This document shows positions 11,379 through 32,209 of a stretch of 43,790 nucleotides of DNA, one piece after another; the first letter of the stretch is position 1, and each line of letters begins with the position of its first letter. The notes under the pieces are model-generated. The model did no database searches, was not told the origin of the DNA, and saw only the letters and a list, made by a program, of their open reading frames with translations. Origin of the DNA: a bacterium (lineage in GTDB: Bacteria; Sumerlaeota; Sumerlaeia; MVZB01); NCBI GenBank assembly GCA_021372575.1, contig JAJFUE010000096.1, forward strand, positions 1-43,790, read 5' to 3'. Both the position numbers and the translations under genes were made by a program.

Positions 11379-14249
11379 CTATCGGGTCGGGTCCGCGCCC
11401 CGACGACGTTGTGCCCAAACGCAACCCAGGCCGATCACGAAGAACTCGGCCAGCCAGTATGCCATCAGCCAATTGAGGATTCCGCTCGTGAAGCCGTAGC
11501 TGTGCAGGCCGATGCCGAGCAGGTTCACGCCCCACCAGCTGAACACCACCACCATCGCCAGGCCGATCGCGCTCAGCGCGATGCCGGGCTCGCGGATGTA
11601 ACCGCCCTTGCGCGCGTGCACGATCGCGAGGCACCACAGCACGATGAGAAGTGCGCCGTTTTCCTTGGGATCCCAGCCCCAGAACCGGCCCCAGCTGTCG
11701 TTGGCCCAGATCCCGCCGAGCACCGTTCCCACGATCGAGAAGAGGAGCGCGAAACAGATCACGCCGTAGATCATCTTCGAAAACGCCGCAAGCGCATCGC
11801 GACTGACGCGGCGGCCCATCAACGCCCCGGCGAGATAGACGTGCGCGAGCGCGCCGGCCAGCAGGCCCGCCGAGTAGCCGATGCTGATCGTGGTCACGTG
11901 CGTCGCGAGCCAGAAGTTGGAGTTGAGGACCGCGACGAGGCTGCCCATCGTGTCGGCGCCGTCCTTGAGCTCGTAACGCGCGGCGATAAACAGCCCGACC
12001 GCGCCAAGGAGCGCGCCGAGACCCGCCGCGATCCGGCGGCGGTCGAACCACTCGACGCCGAGCGCGATCGTCGCCGCAACGGCCGGAACGAACAGCGTCG
12101 TTTCATAAAGGTTCGTGACCGGCGGCCGGCCGCGAATCACGCAGCGCAGGACGATGCCGATGGCGACCAGAACCGTCGCAAGGCCCATCGCGGCGAGCGA
12201 CGCGCTCCAGACGAGCTTGCGCCGCGGCGCCAGCCAGCTGATCGCGATCCCGACGAACGCGAGGATGAACAGGGCGAGCGCCTTGCCGAACAGGTCGAGC
12301 TTGTAGTAGAGGACCTCGAGCCTGAGCCGGCGCGGATCGATGCGCGTTTCGGCGGATTTTAATGCTTGCTGCATAAGCGCCTTGAGATCGGCGCTGAACT
12401 GGCCGGGCTTGTCGATGTGGGAAACAAGATCGACGAGGTTTTCAAGATAGGCCAGCTCGGCGTCGGAGGGTTGATCACCCATGGTCGATCTCGCAAGCAC
12501 TTCAAGCGGGCTCGACCATTGCTGCCGACTCGGCGCGCCGGGCGGGATGATCGCCAGCGGCGGGGCCTGCTCATCCGGAATCGCGAGGAAGTTCAGCGCG
12601 CGCGCCAGCGCCTGGAACTCCGTGACATTCTCGTAAAGATTGAGCGTTTGACGGCGCAGCAGATCGCGCGAGTCGCCGGGCGACGCGTCATCCGCCTGCG
12701 CCAGCTCGAGAAGCTCCTGCCGGCGCGGAAGGATTTCCGCGAAGCTGAACCGCGCGCGCGGAGCGGTGTCCGGCAGGCCAAGCGCCTTCATGAGCTGCGG
12801 ATTCTCGATGAGGAAGACCTTGTCGTCGGCCGCCGAATCGGGAAGAAGCAGAACACGCATGAGCCAGCGCGTCGCCGATTCGCCATGAAGCGTCGAGCGG
12901 CCGCTGAACTGGATCAGCTTGAACCGCGCGAACGTCGCAAGCGGCTTGATGCGGCCCTGATCCTGGATCGGGATCTCGCCGAACGCGCCGATGTTTTCCG
13001 GCGTGAGGATCGCTTCGTGTGGAGTGTTCGTAGTTCCGCCTTCAGGCGGAAAAAAAGAAAAAATAAAGAGCACCGCGCCAACGGCCGCGGCTTTGCGCGC
13101 GCCTTTGAGATAACGCGCGAGCTTGCGCCCGAAGTGCAGCGCGAGGCCGATCGAAATCAGCACGCTTGCCCACAGCGGCAGCTGCTCGAGCGGGTTGCGC
13201 ACCACCGCCAGCACCGAAGCGGTCTCGTGCGTCGAAGGGTCTTCGAAATAGGACGACTGAAAGAACGTGTAGCCGGCGCGGCGCAGCGGTTCGTTCATCT
13301 TGATCGAGACCCGCATCTTCGCGCGACCGTCGTTCAGCACGAGATCGCTTCGATAGACGGCCGGGATTTGCGTGCCGGGGTGGTTCTCATGAATGAAGCG
13401 CGTGAGGCTGAGCGAAAACGGAAGCGGATACTGCCGGCGGCGCAGGTGAATCGACCACGCGCCGCCGGACTCGAACGTGATTGGCGCGCGCTCCAGGCCC
13501 CAGACAAACGCCTCGCGATTTGGGATCGCGACGCTCAGGCCGGGCACGTTCGCCTCGTTTTCCTGATCCATGGGTTGCGGCGCTAGCTCGATCATGTTGC
13601 CGGCGCGATCGCGTCGCGGCTCGGCGTTGGGCGCGTAACTTGAAATGGTGAGCTTGAACGGCCACGAGGGATTCGCGAACTCGCGCTTGCGGCCGCCGCG
13701 CAGATCGGCGAACTCTTTTTGGCCGATCAAGTATTCGGCGCTCTTATCCGGGCCGCACGACGTCAGCACGAGTTCCCACTCGTCGCTGCTCTCGAATGAC
13801 GCGGCGGTTTTGCCGGGGTTGAGGATCATGCGGCCTTCGTCGGCGATGTGGTGCGTGACGAGTGCGCCGCCAAGGAGCACGAACACGCCGCCGTGAACGA
13901 GCTTGAGGCCGAGGCGGGTGCGGTGGCGAATGAACGCGCCGATGAGCATGTTGACGCCAAGAAGCAACATCAGCAGATAGCCGCCGGGAAAGACCGGAAC
14001 ACCGCGCGCGCGCACGAAGAACGATTCGAAATACTTTTGCTGCGCTTGATACAGCCCGATGCTCCCCTGCTCGAGCGTGCCGAAAAGCGTGAGGGCAAAA
14101 AGGGCAAGAAGCAAGGCGCACGCGAGGCCATACGAGCCGAGGAACGCGAGGCATGGGAACGCAACGCTGCCGAGTGGCGAATGCAAATGCGGCCGATCTG
14201 GAGATCGGCGTTCCCGGGCCTCGTGCGGTTTGCGGACATCGGAACTCAT
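11379..14249 (-). CDS. ccsBA: Fused ResB-CcsA cytochrome c biogenesis protein
   Basis: A 956-residue inner-membrane protein. Residues ~35-375 are ResB-like: a transmembrane segment LALFALTLFGTLEQG, further hydrophobic spans and a large periplasmic domain. Residues ~640-956 are CcsA-like, with many membrane spans and the haem-handling WWD-type motif FWGWDPKENGALL (around residues 856-868). In System II maturation such fusions carry haem across the membrane and attach it to apocytochrome c. Between the halves is a ~250-residue soluble linker, longer than in typical fusions. Two dispersed hairpin repeats are part of the coding sequence: residues ~10-20 (14192-14222) and ~400-408 (13026-13051, reading FFPPEGGTT). 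The first ~32 residues look repeat-derived; the family core begins near PCLAFLGSYGL. A later non-ATG start is possible. Confidence 0.92.
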   Translation of the reverse strand: MSSDVRKPHEARERRSPDRPHLHSPLGSVAFPCLAFLGSYGLACALLLALFALTLFGTLEQGSIGLYQAQQKYFESFFVRARGVPVFPGGYLLMLLLGVNMLIGAFIRHRTRLGLKLVHGGVFVLLGGALVTHHIADEGRMILNPGKTAASFESSDEWELVLTSCGPDKSAEYLIGQKEFADLRGGRKREFANPSWPFKLTISSYAPNAEPRRDRAGNMIELAPQPMDQENEANVPGLSVAIPNREAFVWGLERAPITFESGGAWSIHLRRRQYPLPFSLSLTRFIHENHPGTQIPAVYRSDLVLNDGRAKMRVSIKMNEPLRRAGYTFFQSSYFEDPSTHETASVLAVVRNPLEQLPLWASVLISIGLALHFGRKLARYLKGARKAAAVGAVLFIFSFFPPEGGTTNTPHEAILTPENIGAFGEIPIQDQGRIKPLATFARFKLIQFSGRSTLHGESATRWLMRVLLLPDSAADDKVFLIENPQLMKALGLPDTAPRARFSFAEILPRRQELLELAQADDASPGDSRDLLRRQTLNLYENVTEFQALARALNFLAIPDEQAPPLAIIPPGAPSRQQWSSPLEVLARSTMGDQPSDAELAYLENLVDLVSHIDKPGQFSADLKALMQQALKSAETRIDPRRLRLEVLYYKLDLFGKALALFILAFVGIAISWLAPRRKLVWSASLAAMGLATVLVAIGIVLRCVIRGRPPVTNLYETTLFVPAVAATIALGVEWFDRRRIAAGLGALLGAVGLFIAARYELKDGADTMGSLVAVLNSNFWLATHVTTISIGYSAGLLAGALAHVYLAGALMGRRVSRDALAAFSKMIYGVICFALLFSIVGTVLGGIWANDSWGRFWGWDPKENGALLIVLWCLAIVHARKGGYIREPGIALSAIGLAMVVVFSWWGVNLLGIGLHSYGFTSGILNWLMAYWLAEFFVIGLGCVWAQRRRGADPTR
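13026..13051. repeat. Dispersed GTTCGTAGTTCCGCC element inside ccsBA
   Basis: Bases 13026-13051 (GTTCGTAGTTCCGCC, TTCA, GGCGGAA) match one arm and the centre of the complete hairpin element at 33202-33236. Here it lies in frame within ccsBA and encodes FFPPEGGTT-like residues between the ResB part and the linker. Confidence 0.75.
14192..14222. repeat. Dispersed hairpin GCCGATCT/AGATCGGC with GTTCCC tail inside ccsBA start
   Basis: An 8-bp perfect inverted repeat GCCGATCT-GG-AGATCGGC is followed by GTTCCCGGGCCT. The element at 23708-23737 has different stem bases (GCCACTC / GAGTGGC) but the same tail (GTTCCCAGGCCT). Here it encodes residues ~10-20 of ccsBA on the minus strand. Confidence 0.7.
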
Positions 14250-25556: not shown

Positions 25557-28463
25557 ATGCGCGTGATTCAATTTTACATTCGACGCTTTCGGATGTGTTT
25601 GCTCGCGATCGGGATTTCGTGCTCTTTTCTTGGCCGGGCTGATGCAATCGACCCGCACGCGGATTTCCCGTTCGGTTCGGATATCAAGATTTCAGAGAGT
25701 GCCGATTATCAGTCGGTCGCGCCGGGCGACATGGACCGCGACGGCGACACGGACATCGTGGCCGGGATTTACAGCGGCAACTCGATCGTCTGGTTCCAGA
25801 ACAACGACAACGGGACGACTTTCACGCGGCGCGTGATCGATGGCGCTGCGTCGCGCGTCATCAGCGTGAAGGCGGCCGACCTGGACGGCGATGGCGATCC
25901 CGATGTGATTTCGGCGAATGCCGGCAGCCAGGTCCTCGCCTGGTACGAAAATCTCGGGACAAAAACGCCGACGTTCACGAAACACGTGATCAGCATTGCC
26001 GAAGCCGATCCGACCGACGTGGTCGCGGCCGACCTGGATGGAGACGGCGACCTCGATGTCATAGAGGCCAAGAATACCGGCGAAAACATCGTCTGGTTCG
26101 AAAACGACGGCAATCGCCCGCCGGCCTTCAAGCGGCGCGTCATCGAGAATAATCTTGACGGCGCGGTGTGCGTCGCGGCGGCCGACCTGAACAAGGACGG
26201 CGCGCCCGACCTCGCGGCCTCATCCGCGACTCTCAACAAGATCATGGTTTACCTGAGCAGCGGGGGCAAGGCGCCGACGTTCACACCCATGTTCGTCTCG
26301 GACCAGATTGCCATGCCGGTCAAAGTCGGCGCGGCCGATTTCAACGCCGACGGCAAGATGGATCTGTTCGTGTTCGGCCAGTTGAGCGCCGAAATCGATT
26401 GGTTTAAAAACGGCGGAACGACCATTCCGAGCTACACGCGCAACCTGCTGTACATGGACAACCAGGATCGCGGGCGCGCGGCGGTTTCGACCGACGTCGA
26501 TCTTGACGGCCGGCCCGACATCGTGGCGAGCGGATCGTGGATGCGCAACGAAGGCGACTCCGGCCCGACATTTCATCACTACGTTATCAGCGACAGTCCC
26601 GTTTTAAATTTCGTCGCGCGCATCGACGGCGATCGCTACCCGGACCTGGTCTATGCACACCATGCGGTCTATTGGGCAAAGAACCGCTACCGCAGAACCG
26701 AAGACCTCAAGCCGGAAAACTGGGCGCCTCAGGAGGGCGAGACCGTGGGGCTGTATCCGCGGCTGGCGATCGACGACCCGGATTACATGTCGGTCTATAC
26801 GCATATCGCGACGCAGTGGCACGTCAGCACGAAGCCCGATTTCTCGACGCTCGCATGGGATTCCAATTTTTCGCAGAGTGGCCTGAACCAGATCATGGTG
26901 AAGGTCGAGCTTCAACCGAACACGACGTATTACTTCCGCGCGCGGCGGCAGTTCACGGACAAAAACACGCCGTGGTCGGACGCGACCTCGTTCCGCACGA
27001 TCGCGAGGAAAATCACGATTTCAAACGTTCCGGGCCAGTATGCCACGATTCAAGGCGCGATCAACGCCGCGGCGACCGGTTCGGAAATCGTCGTGCCGCG
27101 CGGGCACTACACGGAGAACATCAACCTCAAGGGCAAAAGCCTGACGCTGCGCTCGGAGAATCCTTCCGACTGGAACACGGTCGCCGCGACGATCATCGAC
27201 GGCAATTACCGCACGGCAACGGTGGCCTTTGCCGGGACGGAGAACGCGTCGTGCCGGCTTGCCGGCTTTACGATCCAGCGCGGCTGGGCCATGTATGGAG
27301 CCGGCGTTTTCGGCAACGGCTGCCATGCGCTCATCGAACGCAACGTGATCATGCACAACATCGCGGCGGACGGCGCCGGCGGCGGGATGTCGCATTGCCA
27401 GGGGATCATCCAGAACAATCAGATCGTGGAAAATGGACTGATCAACAGCCGGGGCGGCGGCCTGTTCTACTGCAACGGCGAGATCCGCAACAACGTGATC
27501 AGGAGCAACGGCATCCACAATCCGCAGCAAAATACATCCTGGGGCGGCGGGCTGGCCGACTGCAAGGGTTCCATCCACAACAACCAAATCACCGATAACA
27601 TCGCGACGACCGGCGGGGGGCTGTCGGGCTGCCAGAACATCCGGGCCAACATCATTCGGGGGAACTACGCCTATAGCGACGGCGGCGGCCTGGACGGGTG
27701 CCTGTCGATTGGGGACAACCTGATCGATGGCAACGCGGCGTATATCGGAGGCGCCCTGTTGCACTGCGCCGATGTCAAAAACTGCACGATCGTGCGCAAC
27801 ACGACACGGTCCAACAACTCGCCCGTTTATGATTGCACGGGACCGCTCGTGAATTGCATTGTGTGGGATGTTCCTACGACGGTCTGCATCACGTCGTTTA
27901 ATGCCGAATATTCATGCGTCCAGCGTGGCGCCTACGGGACCGGCAATATCACGAGCGACCCGCAGTTCGTGAACGCGGCGGCGGGCGATTTTCGCCTGAA
28001 ATCCACGTCGCCGTGCATCGACGCCGGCAAGGACTCGGGGACCGGGTTCGACATCAACGGCGCGCCGCACGGGGTGCTGGTGGTCGGCGGCCGCGGCGAC
28101 GGCTCGAACTACGACATGGGCGCGTACGAGTACATCCCGAACGACATCCTGGTCAACGCGCCGCAAGGCAACTTCCTCACCGGGACTCAGATCCGCGTGA
28201 CGGGGTGGTTCTACACGCCGACGGTGGGCGATACGGTCCGGATCGAGCTGTGGCGCGGCGGCCAGAAGGTCGTGGTGCTCGGCGAAGTCTATAGCCCGTC
28301 GGGCAGCATCGACCAGGTGTTCACGCTGCCGGTGCTGGCAAGCGGCTCATACCAGCTCCGCGCGATCAGCCTCGTCAACCCCGCGCTCTCCGATGCGAGC
28401 GACAACCTGATCGTGATCACGTTCAAAAACGCGGTGCGCGGCGGGTGGCAATTATACCGGTAG
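25557..28463 (+). CDS. Secreted beta-propeller / beta-helix protein, paralog 1
   Basis: About 968 residues from ATG 25557 (AGGGG about 9 bases upstream; the longer frame is unsupported and this start matches the paralog's length). A signal peptide ends near ADA (residue 30). Residues ~40-375 hold seven FG-GAP/VCBS-like blades with calcium loops such as DRDGDTDI, DLDGDGDPD and DVDLDGRPD. Residues ~385-485 look like a fibronectin-III-type domain ending ATSFRT. Residues ~488-770 form a right-handed parallel beta-helix (YATIQGAINAA, then GGG-x-x-x-C coils). Cysteines recur about once per coil at 566, 589, 614, 639, 669, 692, 715, 737 and 760. A ~150-residue C-terminal domain follows. Carbohydrate binding or cleavage is plausible; no catalytic residues can be assigned. 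Confidence 0.88.
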   Translation: MRVIQFYIRRFRMCLLAIGISCSFLGRADAIDPHADFPFGSDIKISESADYQSVAPGDMDRDGDTDIVAGIYSGNSIVWFQNNDNGTTFTRRVIDGAASRVISVKAADLDGDGDPDVISANAGSQVLAWYENLGTKTPTFTKHVISIAEADPTDVVAADLDGDGDLDVIEAKNTGENIVWFENDGNRPPAFKRRVIENNLDGAVCVAAADLNKDGAPDLAASSATLNKIMVYLSSGGKAPTFTPMFVSDQIAMPVKVGAADFNADGKMDLFVFGQLSAEIDWFKNGGTTIPSYTRNLLYMDNQDRGRAAVSTDVDLDGRPDIVASGSWMRNEGDSGPTFHHYVISDSPVLNFVARIDGDRYPDLVYAHHAVYWAKNRYRRTEDLKPENWAPQEGETVGLYPRLAIDDPDYMSVYTHIATQWHVSTKPDFSTLAWDSNFSQSGLNQIMVKVELQPNTTYYFRARRQFTDKNTPWSDATSFRTIARKITISNVPGQYATIQGAINAAATGSEIVVPRGHYTENINLKGKSLTLRSENPSDWNTVAATIIDGNYRTATVAFAGTENASCRLAGFTIQRGWAMYGAGVFGNGCHALIERNVIMHNIAADGAGGGMSHCQGIIQNNQIVENGLINSRGGGLFYCNGEIRNNVIRSNGIHNPQQNTSWGGGLADCKGSIHNNQITDNIATTGGGLSGCQNIRANIIRGNYAYSDGGGLDGCLSIGDNLIDGNAAYIGGALLHCADVKNCTIVRNTTRSNNSPVYDCTGPLVNCIVWDVPTTVCITSFNAEYSCVQRGAYGTGNITSDPQFVNAAAGDFRLKSTSPCIDAGKDSGTGFDINGAPHGVLVVGGRGDGSNYDMGAYEYIPNDILVNAPQGNFLTGTQIRVTGWFYTPTVGDTVRIELWRGGQKVVVLGEVYSPSGSIDQVFTLPVLASGSYQLRAISLVNPALSDASDNLIVITFKNAVRGGWQLYR

Positions 28464-28666
28464 AGAGCCGGGCCTAAATGCCTCGCGAACGGATCGGTTC
28501 GAGCAAACCACGCGGGAAATCGGACGCGCCGCGCAATCGCGGCCGAGCGGATGGACACGCGTTTTTTCTGTTTGGCGTGACAAATCAGACACGCGGAGCT
28601 ATAAAATAATTGCAGTACAACTACGGCTTTTTTCAACCCTGATCCTTTCTCACCCGAGGTGCCATT

Positions 28667-31576
28667 ATGAAAAACAGGCCTATTTTCGATCGGTTTTGGC
28701 TCGGGCGCTTTCGGATGTTGGCCGCGATCGGGATTTTTTGCGCGCTCGCTTGCCACCCGGCGTTTGCTGTGGACACGCATGCGAATTTTGTGTTCGGCGC
28801 GCCCCAAAAGATCGCAACGAGTACCGGTTACAATTCGATTGCCGTCGGCGACCTGGACGGCGACGGCAGCATGGACCTGGTCGCTTCGAATCCGCTCAGA
28901 GGCTTTGTCGCGGGCTTTATCAATAACGGCGACATGACGTTTAGCGGGAACACGATCGATAGGGATTCGGGTGGCACGGCAAACGTCAAGACGGCCGACC
29001 TCGACCAGGACGGCGACATGGACGTGCTGACGGCGAATCCCGGCCTGCAGACGATCGTGTGGTATGAAAACCTCGGCACAAAGCCACCGACGTTCGCCAA
29101 GCACGTGATCAGTGCCGTCGAGCGCGAAACGCGGGACGTTGCAGTGGCCGACCTCGACGGCGACGGCGACATGGACATCGCCGAGGTCAAGTACGACGGC
29201 GACAACGTCGTCTGGTTCAAGAACGAGGGGACGACGTTCACGCGCCACGTCATCGACCGGGAATTGGACGAATCGGTGAGCGTTTCGACGGCCGACATCA
29301 ATGGCGACGGGGCGAACGACATCATCGCCTGCGCCGGCATGAAGAACAAGCTGGTGCTCTATCTGAACAATGGGGCCCATCACCCGACGTTCACGCCGAT
29401 TCTGGTTTCGGAGTCGCTCACATGGACGATGAAGGCCGGCGCGGCCGATTTCGACGCCGACGGCCACCTGGACATCTTCGGCTACGGTCAGTACAGCGAT
29501 GACACGGCGTGGTTCCAGAACAACGGCGGGCAAGTTCCGGGTTTCACAAAATACGGGATTCACATAAGCAACAACCAGATCGGGGCCGCGGCGGTGGCGG
29601 CCGACGTCGATCTGGACGGCCGGCCGGACATCGTCACCGGTAATCTCTGGTTCCGCAACAAGGGCGGCGCCACCCCGACGTTCCAGGCATACTACCTGAA
29701 TTGCAACATCAACAAGGCCGCCTCGAATGCCGTCGCGCGCCTCGATGCCGATGCGTATCCCGATTATGCGTGGGTCGATAACTATGTTTACGTTGCCCGG
29801 AGCCGTTACCGCAGAACCGAGGACCTCAAGCCGATCAACCGCACGCCTTTGACCGGGCAGGTCGTCTCGGTCCGTCCGCGGCTTGGCATCGACGACCCGG
29901 ACTACATGTCGGTCAACACGCACACCGCGACACAGTGGCAGATCGCCCCGAACTCTGAATTCACCACGCCGACGCTCGTGTATGATTCGGGCTATTCGAC
30001 GAACTTGCAGCAAATCGTCATCGGACAATCGCTGCAGCCGAACACGACGTATTGGTTCCGCGCGCGGCGGCATTTCACGGACGGAGACACGCCGTGGTCG
30101 AAACCGACCTCGTTCCGGACGGTCGAGCGGCTGATCACGGTCTCGGGTTCGCCGGACGGGTTCGGCACAATCCAGGCGGCGCTCGACGCGGCGCCGGCAG
30201 GTTCGACGATCGTCGTGCCGCGCGCGCTTTACACCGAAAACATCAAGTTCAAGGGCAGGAACGTGACGCTGCGCTCGGAAGACGTGCTCGACACGCACAC
30301 GGTCGCGGCGACGATCATCGACGGCAACTGGGCGGGATCGACGGTTTCGTTCTCCGGGACGGAAACGACCAGTTGCGTACTCGCCGGGTTCACGATCCGC
30401 AACGGCTGGTCGGGGTATGGCGGCGGCGTTTACGGCAAAGGCTGCACGGCGACCGTCGAACACAACATCATCACGATGAACACGGCGAGCAATGGCGGCG
30501 GGATCTCGCACTGCCAGGGCATCATCCAGTTCAATCAGATTGTTCAGAACAAGCTTGCGCACAGCAACAACGGGGCGGGCGTTTATTATTGCAACGGCGA
30601 GATCCGCAACAACGTCATCGCGCGAAACGGGGCTGAAGGGGCCTCTAGCACGTCCGGCGGCGGGCTGTCCGACTGCAAGGGAAGCATTCATAACAACGAG
30701 ATCGCCGAAAACAAGGCATACTACGGCGCCGGCTTGTTTAACTGCAATCACGTGCGCGCCAACGTCATCCGCGGTAACAAGTCGGGCAACACCGGCGGCG
30801 GGCTGAGCGGCTGCATTTACGTCGATGACAATCTCATCGTCTCGAACATGGCGGCCTACAGCGGCGCGCTCTATCAGTGCGCCCAGATCAGGAACAATAC
30901 GATTGTCAAGAACACCGCTACCAATTACGCCGTGGCCGCGGCGTGCGCGACGAAACTGATCAACTGCATCGTCCGCGACAACACGGCCATATATCAACAC
31001 GAAACCGTGAATGCCGATTACTCGTGCATCGACATCGCCTCGTCGGGCAACGCGAACATCAGCGCCGACCCGCAGTTCGTCAATGCCGCGGCGGGCGATT
31101 ACCGGCTTAAGGCCACGTCGCCGTGCATCGACGCGGGGATGAATTCCGGGACCGGGTTCGACATCAACGGCGCACCGCACGGGGTGCTGGTCGTCGGCGG
31201 CCGCGGCGACGGCTCGAACTACGACATGGGCGCGTACGAGTACATCCCGAACGACATCCTGGTCAACGCGCCGCAGGGCGACTTCCTCACCGGGACCCAG
31301 ATCCGCGTGACGGGGTGGTTCTACACGCCGACGGTCGGAAATACGGTTCGGATCGAGCTGTGGCGCGGCGGCCAGAAGGTTGTGGTGCTCGGCGAAGTGT
31401 TCAGCTCGTCGGGCAGCTTCGACCAGGTGTTCACGCTGCCGGTGCTCGCGAGCGGCTCATATGAAATCCGCGCGATCAGCCTCGTCAACCCCGCGCTCTC
31501 GAGCACGGGCGCCACCCCGGTCGCGATCATCTATAAGAACGCCGTGCGGAGTGGGAACTGGCCAGCGTATCAATAA
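28667..31576 (+). CDS. Secreted beta-propeller / beta-helix protein, paralog 2
   Basis: A 969-residue paralog with the same domain order: signal peptide (ACHPAFA, cut near residue 34), seven FG-GAP blades (DLDGDGSMD at 62-70, DLDQDGDMD at 111-119, DLDGDGDMD at 162-170 and others), a fibronectin-like domain (~385-485), the parallel beta-helix (~490-770) and the shared C-terminal domain. The cysteine ladder is conserved at 570, 593, 616, 642, 670, 693, 716, 738 and 760, with 22-28-residue spacing. GAGGTG lies before the ATG. The last ~350 bases are far closer to paralog 1 than the rest, pointing to gene conversion. The SUKH-family gene begins 9 bases after its stop. The start and domain limits are by eye. 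Confidence 0.88.
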   Translation: MKNRPIFDRFWLGRFRMLAAIGIFCALACHPAFAVDTHANFVFGAPQKIATSTGYNSIAVGDLDGDGSMDLVASNPLRGFVAGFINNGDMTFSGNTIDRDSGGTANVKTADLDQDGDMDVLTANPGLQTIVWYENLGTKPPTFAKHVISAVERETRDVAVADLDGDGDMDIAEVKYDGDNVVWFKNEGTTFTRHVIDRELDESVSVSTADINGDGANDIIACAGMKNKLVLYLNNGAHHPTFTPILVSESLTWTMKAGAADFDADGHLDIFGYGQYSDDTAWFQNNGGQVPGFTKYGIHISNNQIGAAAVAADVDLDGRPDIVTGNLWFRNKGGATPTFQAYYLNCNINKAASNAVARLDADAYPDYAWVDNYVYVARSRYRRTEDLKPINRTPLTGQVVSVRPRLGIDDPDYMSVNTHTATQWQIAPNSEFTTPTLVYDSGYSTNLQQIVIGQSLQPNTTYWFRARRHFTDGDTPWSKPTSFRTVERLITVSGSPDGFGTIQAALDAAPAGSTIVVPRALYTENIKFKGRNVTLRSEDVLDTHTVAATIIDGNWAGSTVSFSGTETTSCVLAGFTIRNGWSGYGGGVYGKGCTATVEHNIITMNTASNGGGISHCQGIIQFNQIVQNKLAHSNNGAGVYYCNGEIRNNVIARNGAEGASSTSGGGLSDCKGSIHNNEIAENKAYYGAGLFNCNHVRANVIRGNKSGNTGGGLSGCIYVDDNLIVSNMAAYSGALYQCAQIRNNTIVKNTATNYAVAAACATKLINCIVRDNTAIYQHETVNADYSCIDIASSGNANISADPQFVNAAAGDYRLKATSPCIDAGMNSGTGFDINGAPHGVLVVGGRGDGSNYDMGAYEYIPNDILVNAPQGDFLTGTQIRVTGWFYTPTVGNTVRIELWRGGQKVVVLGEVFSSSGSFDQVFTLPVLASGSYEIRAISLVNPALSSTGATPVAIIYKNAVRSGNWPAYQ

Positions 31577-31585
31577 GGTTCGACT

Positions 31586-32209
31586 ATGAGCGAAATCGAG
31601 AATTACGACCAGATCATTGACGATCTTTTAATACTATCGGCATCGAGCGTGTCTGTTTTCGGCTCGGATTACCACGATTTTGTACTTCACCCACCGGTGC
31701 TGGAAAACGAGCTGGTCGAATTCGAACGCAAACACAAAATTCGTTTGCCTGATGAATACAGGGGTTTCCTGCTCCGCTGCGGGCGTGGCGGTGCAGGTCC
31801 CTTTTATGGACTGTTCGATTTTCAGTGTACGGACGACGGCGCGTGGAATGAAGGAGATGGTTTTGTCGGAATACTGGCCAATCCTTTTCCATACACCGAA
31901 TCGTGGAACGATCTAACCGGGGAGCCCGCGGATGATCTGCTAGATAAAGACGAGGATGAATATGAAAGACAACTAAACGTATTCGAATCGAGATATTGGG
32001 CCCCGCTCGACGGGGCGATACCAATTTGTCATTTGGGATGTAATCTAAGGCAGTGGCTTGTGATTTCCGGTCCCGAAGCCGGCCATGTTTGGGCCGATAA
32101 TAGAGTCGATTTGAAAGGGCTGTCGCCGTTGCCCGGAAAAAACTCTGAACGAATCACTTTTTACCACTGGTATCGCGATTGGTTGGACGAGGTGCTGTCA
32201 ACGATGTGA
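31586..32209 (+). CDS. SMI1/KNR4 (SUKH) family protein, possible immunity protein
   Basis: A 207-residue cytoplasmic protein. The SUKH core is visible: an N-terminal helix, LENELVEFERKHKIRLPDEY then RGFLLRCGRGGAGPFYGLF, and later IPICHLGCNLRQWLVISG with GHVWADNR, followed by a final helix FYHWYRDWLDEVL. SUKH proteins are frequent immunity proteins of polymorphic toxin systems, though some have other roles. AAGG overlaps the stop codon of the upstream beta-helix gene, so expression is probably coupled to it. No toxin domain is evident in that neighbour, so the cognate toxin, if any, is not identified. The next gene is convergent (VapC-like). Confidence 0.85.
   Translation: MSEIENYDQIIDDLLILSASSVSVFGSDYHDFVLHPPVLENELVEFERKHKIRLPDEYRGFLLRCGRGGAGPFYGLFDFQCTDDGAWNEGDGFVGILANPFPYTESWNDLTGEPADDLLDKDEDEYERQLNVFESRYWAPLDGAIPICHLGCNLRQWLVISGPEAGHVWADNRVDLKGLSPLPGKNSERITFYHWYRDWLDEVLSTM

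Follow-up and report, generated by a model that had tools for sequence, protein, structure and literature searches.

A cysteine ladder at one corner of the predicted beta-helices of tandem secreted paralogs and their relatives in a bacterial phylum

Stacked cysteines have been described in several solenoid proteins. The N-terminal beta-helix of the fucoidan lyase FdlA holds five buried cysteines (168, 192, 267, 290 and 309) at the turn-strand juncture of coils 4-8, and its authors regarded this Cys ladder as unusual and as a probable stabiliser of the groove (PMC9410043). In the beta-helix of LmTBCC-C, an interior stack of four cysteines runs through consecutive coils with S-S distances of 3.8-4.7 Å, and RP2 stacks similarly (PMC4539340). 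A ladder of that name is also attributed to InlJ (Bublitz et al. 2008, cited in PMC3196904, PMC9210967 and PMC7479077); as far as these citing papers describe it, InlJ is likewise a repeat protein but has a leucine-rich-repeat solenoid and no beta-helix.

We analysed a 43,790-nucleotide stretch of bacterial DNA (the window, in its whole length) in which two tandem paralogs use the same device. The device itself is already known; the ladder in the window is longer than the known ones, secreted, lineage-wide and accompanied by two Asn corners. It resembles that of FdlA in being a right-handed beta-helix whose coils each place a single Cys, in register, at the same corner and at a turn-strand juncture, where the Cys is probably buried. 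In contrast, FdlA has five Cys only, in one enzyme, a lyase, and does not match the window proteins in sequence: PDB searches with the second paralog, one homologue and a 7-sequence profile returned no meaningful relative. With LmTBCC-C and RP2 the window proteins share a Cys column, probably interior and stacked, in consecutive beta-helix coils, whereas there the Cys are mid-strand, four only, and belong to a eukaryotic tubulin-cofactor-type protein. The initial annotation called a full Cys ladder unusual. This holds for the literature, where only shorter ones have been published (five Cys in FdlA, four in LmTBCC-C and RP2), but not for the phylum of the window, in which one coil type normally has it.

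The two paralogs, P0001 and P0002, are 58% identical by alignment, and their coordinates and lengths agree with those first given (about 970 residues each). Both have the same domain order: a signal peptide (a signal-like N-terminal segment, called by eye), an FG-GAP propeller, an Fn3-like linker, a right-handed beta-helix, a choice-of-anchor-Q domain and a Kre9/KNH-like C-terminus. The features are as follows.

25557..28463, + strand: P0001, first paralog, secreted FG-GAP / beta-helix / choice-of-anchor-Q protein, 968 aa (ORF; Pfam FG-GAP_3, 4.2e-38; NF041518; signal-peptide-like N-terminus by eye)
25704..26591, + strand: P0001 FG-GAP repeat (beta-propeller-like) region (PF13517, six stretches; outer limits approximate)
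27018..27926, + strand: P0001 right-handed beta-helix with Cys ladder (AF2 model, mean pLDDT 79, pTM 0.83)
27987..28133, + strand: P0001 choice-of-anchor-Q domain (NF041518, residues 811-859)
28137..28460, + strand: P0001 C-terminal domain ending W-x-x-Y-x, common to other secreted proteins of the genome (sequence comparison; PF10342 match in the C73 paralog)
28667..31576, + strand: P0002, second paralog, 969 aa (ORF; alignment; Pfam/NCBIfam)
28829..29701, + strand: P0002 FG-GAP repeat region (PF13517, six stretches; outer limits approximate)
30134..31036, + strand: P0002 right-handed beta-helix with Cys ladder (AF2 model, mean pLDDT 73, pTM 0.75)
31097..31243, + strand: P0002 choice-of-anchor-Q domain (NF041518, residues 811-859)
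31247..31573, + strand: P0002 C-terminal domain ending W-x-x-Y-x (sequence comparison)

Both proteins belong to the FG-GAP family PF13517 (130.2 bits for P0001 and 122.8 for P0002; gathering cut-off 26.9) and to the choice-of-anchor-Q family NF041518 (31.1 and 29.7 bits; cut-off 25). Residues ~430-485 match the purple-acid-phosphatase N-domain (Fn3-like) weakly, below threshold. A long antisense ORF (28289-31180) was discarded, being taken for the shadow of a + strand gene that bears domains. The protein type is secreted and probably serves at the cell surface in binding or as a stalk.

The Kre9/KNH-like C-terminal domain, ~100 aa long, recurs on otherwise unlike secreted-type proteins of the genome and the family (also L126, L127, L128, L130 and L037). 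Nearly all copies end in W-x-x-Y-x (NWPAYQ, GWQLYR, NWESYH, NWLYYQ, AWMLYR, KWIDYK, KWTDYR and NWQAYP), and from sequence comparison the domain is a candidate C-terminal sorting tag. The 3' parts of the two genes (28047-28376 and 31157-31486) are ~90-100% identical at the DNA level across ~300 bases, most of the rest being ~58-71% identical; either recent gene conversion or strong constraint may account for this. A gene of the SMI1/KNR4 (SUKH) family (31586-32209) starts 10 nt past the P0002 stop. SUKH proteins are often immunity proteins, and a polymorphic-toxin reading suggested by this neighbour was set aside because the C-termini of the pair are the Kre9/KNH-like domain common to other proteins and carry no toxin domain. 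Elsewhere in the window, the ORF 11379-14249 (956 aa) combines, within a single frame, a ResB and a CcsA-type domain of cytochrome c assembly.

The beta-helix spans residues ~488-790. Its AlphaFold2 models used 6 and 4 input sequences, with pLDDT dropping towards the last coils; in P0002 pLDDT exceeds 80 over most of residues 490-730. In both paralogs the modelled coil consists of three short strands and three corners. Foldseek searches with the models returned mostly known right-handed beta-helices as top matches (PL6, AlgE, Pel9A and the pectin methylesterases, PME), at weak E-values (best 3e-4, most 1e-3 to 3e-2). The three-strand coils and these weak matches place both proteins in the right-handed parallel beta-helix fold. 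The right-handed beta-helix family PF13229 gave no match up to E 0.1 in P0001 or P0002; the ladder homologues L082, L037 and L047 pass it.

The nine Cys first listed for each paralog are real and all align column for column (566, 589, 614, 639, 669, 692, 715, 737 and 760 in P0001; 570, 593, 616, 642, 670, 693, 716, 738 and 760 in P0002). Cys are conserved at 767, 787 and 820 as well. Of the nine, eight follow one coil register relative to the following strand, Cys589/Cys593 and Cys760 being in register if counted from the next strand. Cys566/Cys570 stand two residues before the Ile/Leu of the next strand, the in-register Cys three to four, and the former are not strictly members of the ladder.

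27252..27254, + strand: codon of Cys566 (P0001), conserved, outside the ladder register (alignment, register count)
27321..27836, + strand: P0001 in-register ladder Cys 589, 614, 639, 669, 692, 715, 737 and 760, with codon starts 27321, 27396, 27471, 27561, 27630, 27699, 27765 and 27834 (alignment, AF2 model)
30374..30376, + strand: codon of Cys570 (P0002), conserved, outside the ladder register (alignment, register count)
30443..30946, + strand: P0002 in-register ladder Cys 593, 616, 642, 670, 693, 716, 738 and 760, with codon starts 30443, 30512, 30590, 30674, 30743, 30812, 30878 and 30944 (alignment, AF2 model)

In both models strand 1 ends either at the in-register Cys itself or exactly two residues before it, and the next strand begins 1 to 4 residues after the Cys. 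The proposal that the Cys share one face is supported: both models give the eight a common corner, between strand 1 and strand 2, coil upon coil. The motif GGG-x-x-x-C, described at first as usual, precedes six of the nine Cys in each protein (614-737 and 616-738, as GGG, GAG, GGA or SGA) but not the other three. As claimed, the positions are kept despite divergence: the helix region keeps 11 of its 13 Cys, against ~55% identity overall.

Looking beyond the pair, the coil consensus is GGGLxxC(D/N)GxIxNNxIxxNxA, with Cys at one corner and Asn at two. The homologues do not vary freely at the Cys position. Position 7 is Cys in 351 of 400 coils (88%) from 42 homologues, almost all belonging to the class, and Asn occupies position 14 in 87% and position 19 in 94% of 399 coils. 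Given that the other two corners are Asn, Cys stands in place of the third ladder. Against seeding bias, DNA coil patterns with position 7 fixed or free were used; across 40 genomes of the phylum the free pattern matched 295 coils, 277 of them (94%) with Cys, and the reversed-pattern control gave 0. Together, these two results indicate that the Cys column is more than chance. Non-ladder Cys make up 1.5% of the same proteins.

Coil duplication can extend a beta-helix, and the Cys column could be a roleless leftover of recent copying. Many near-identical coils in some genomes (G011, G012) fit this idea. Counter to this, positions 5, 6, 8, 10 and 12 of the 42 proteins have drifted apart, their commonest residue reaching 19-45%, while position 7 has stayed Cys, and all nine Cys are kept by paralogs at ~55% identity. 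We regard copying without a role as very improbable.

Residues that replace Cys bear on where its side chain lies. When only the hydrophobic and Asn positions were fixed, position 7 in 406 coils was C in 353, S in 14, F in 11, G in 10, L in 4, T in 4, A in 3, V in 3, Q in 2, N in 1 and D in 1. These substitutes are mainly small or hydrophobic, as expected of a buried site. An outward-facing track of reactive thiols, which would tether the protein through covalent bonds or engage a cofactor or a redox partner, might explain why the position is conserved across rapidly diverging surface-type proteins; Phe, Val, Leu, Gly and Ser suit a buried position instead, and the variable, polar positions are the neighbours 5, 6 and 8. 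Exposure of this kind strikes us as highly improbable.

We favour, as the probable reading, a buried stack of free thiols at the corner that would stiffen the secreted beta-helix, with a structural rather than a catalytic role. In each coil, Cys (position 7 of GGGLxxC) holds one corner and Asn (positions 14 and 19) the other two. The Cys side chains would point inward and stack along the helix axis at van der Waals distance, each thiol being a small and mildly hydrophobic plug that closes the tight corner ahead of the x-Gly turn. Such a stack may parallel the Asn ladders. The near-exclusive use of Cys over Ser or Ala suggests that packing alone is not the full explanation, and Cys at 94% of coils hints at a more specific job, since small or hydrophobic residues could fill the corner equally well.

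In disulfide-laddered solenoids, such as insect antifreeze beta-helices, paired Cys form disulfides in every coil. Here each coil has one Cys, not two; in a disulfide ladder the Cys of adjacent coils would be oxidised pairwise (1-2, 3-4 and so on), stapling the solenoid outside the cell. Arguing for this, the proteins are secreted, Cys is strongly preferred over Ser and Ala, and the coil rise of a parallel beta-helix, near 4.8 Å, brings the C-alpha atoms of adjacent coils close to the lower disulfide limit. Yet among runs of consecutive Cys coils, odd lengths (52) are about as frequent as even ones (45), which argues against pairing, and a single isolated coil is the commonest run (25); these counts are approximate, as coils with insertions escape the coil finder. 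Both published beta-helix stacks are, moreover, described as stacks and not as disulfides. The search for envelope oxidation, which covered VKOR, found none in the genome of the window. VKOR passes the family cut-off in 1 of 13 ladder genomes versus 11 of 26 others (Fisher p 0.03), or in 1/9 versus 3/5 when counted by family (p 0.09). In the class of the window's genome, genomes with VKOR thus tend to lack the ladder and the reverse, a pattern that relatedness may explain. We consider a disulfide ladder unlikely.

A thiol column could also bind a soft metal such as Cu(I) in a linear S-M-S chain, for storage, detoxification or electron transfer. Linear bis-thiolate Cu(I) fits S-S spacings of 3.8-4.7 Å, the spacing of the published stack, and homologues score weakly to the copper-related NosD family. 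However, these scores (TIGR04247) are 17-46 bits where the cut-off is 300, the substitutions show no His/Met/Glu pattern, and in several coils Phe or Gly replaces Cys while the neighbours stay Cys, so that we find a metal site very unlikely. For the pair itself the NosD assignment was rejected (17.4 bits for P0001, no match for P0002). Up to ~10 thiols, one coil rise apart, could in principle act as a functional wire that relays redox equivalents or binds a soft metal, Cu(I) or a different one, in genomes that mostly have no VKOR match; we consider this very unlikely. The substitutes, the lack of run parity and the lack of VKOR together favour the buried free-thiol stack over disulfides or metal. 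Among the functions first offered, the thiol stack therefore fits best, and the disulfide ladder, metal and cofactor find no support in runs without parity and in small or hydrophobic substitutes with almost no His, Asp or Glu.

A search for other beta-helix proteins with one Cys per coil found hundreds of such coils in related proteins of the phylum. All 295 position-free matches lie in 13 of the 40 genomes. The own genome has 46 PF13229 matches and a third ladder protein, C73 (1341 aa), in which 13 of 23 coils have Cys and G, F, S, T or A replaces it in others; the other beta-helix loci among those read have few or no GGG-type Cys coils. A noisy two-coil DNA pattern gave 18 matches in this genome, 13 of them in the window pair and C73, versus 8 for the reversed control. 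The GG[GA][ILV] ... N-x-[IF]-x-x-N coil is shared with choice-of-anchor-Q/PF13229 surface proteins and Chlamydia Pmp repeats, as is the choice_anch_Q domain with the former, and one family homologue scores to Chlam_PMP. What differs is the position-7 Cys coil, which is lineage-restricted as far as sequence sampling reaches: 392 sampled Planctomycetota genomes (the phylum of L112) have none.

Two genomes stand out. G012 (L075-L086) has an expanded repertoire, with 138 ladder coils in many large proteins. In G041 (L111, L123), apparently of a phylum group other than that of the window, 96 of 97 coils have Cys, and 43 of its phylum-mates have no ladder coils; its coils may reflect either horizontal transfer or a mixed bin.

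If the ladder thiols are reduced outside the cell, how so many stay so becomes the question. The hundreds of natural coils, with their rare Ser, Phe and Gly swaps, form a test set for the part that thiol stacking plays in solenoid stability, and the coil motif is a simple design template for stable free-thiol solenoids. Beside the Asn ladder, Cys can be a regular corner residue of beta-helices at the scale of a phylum.
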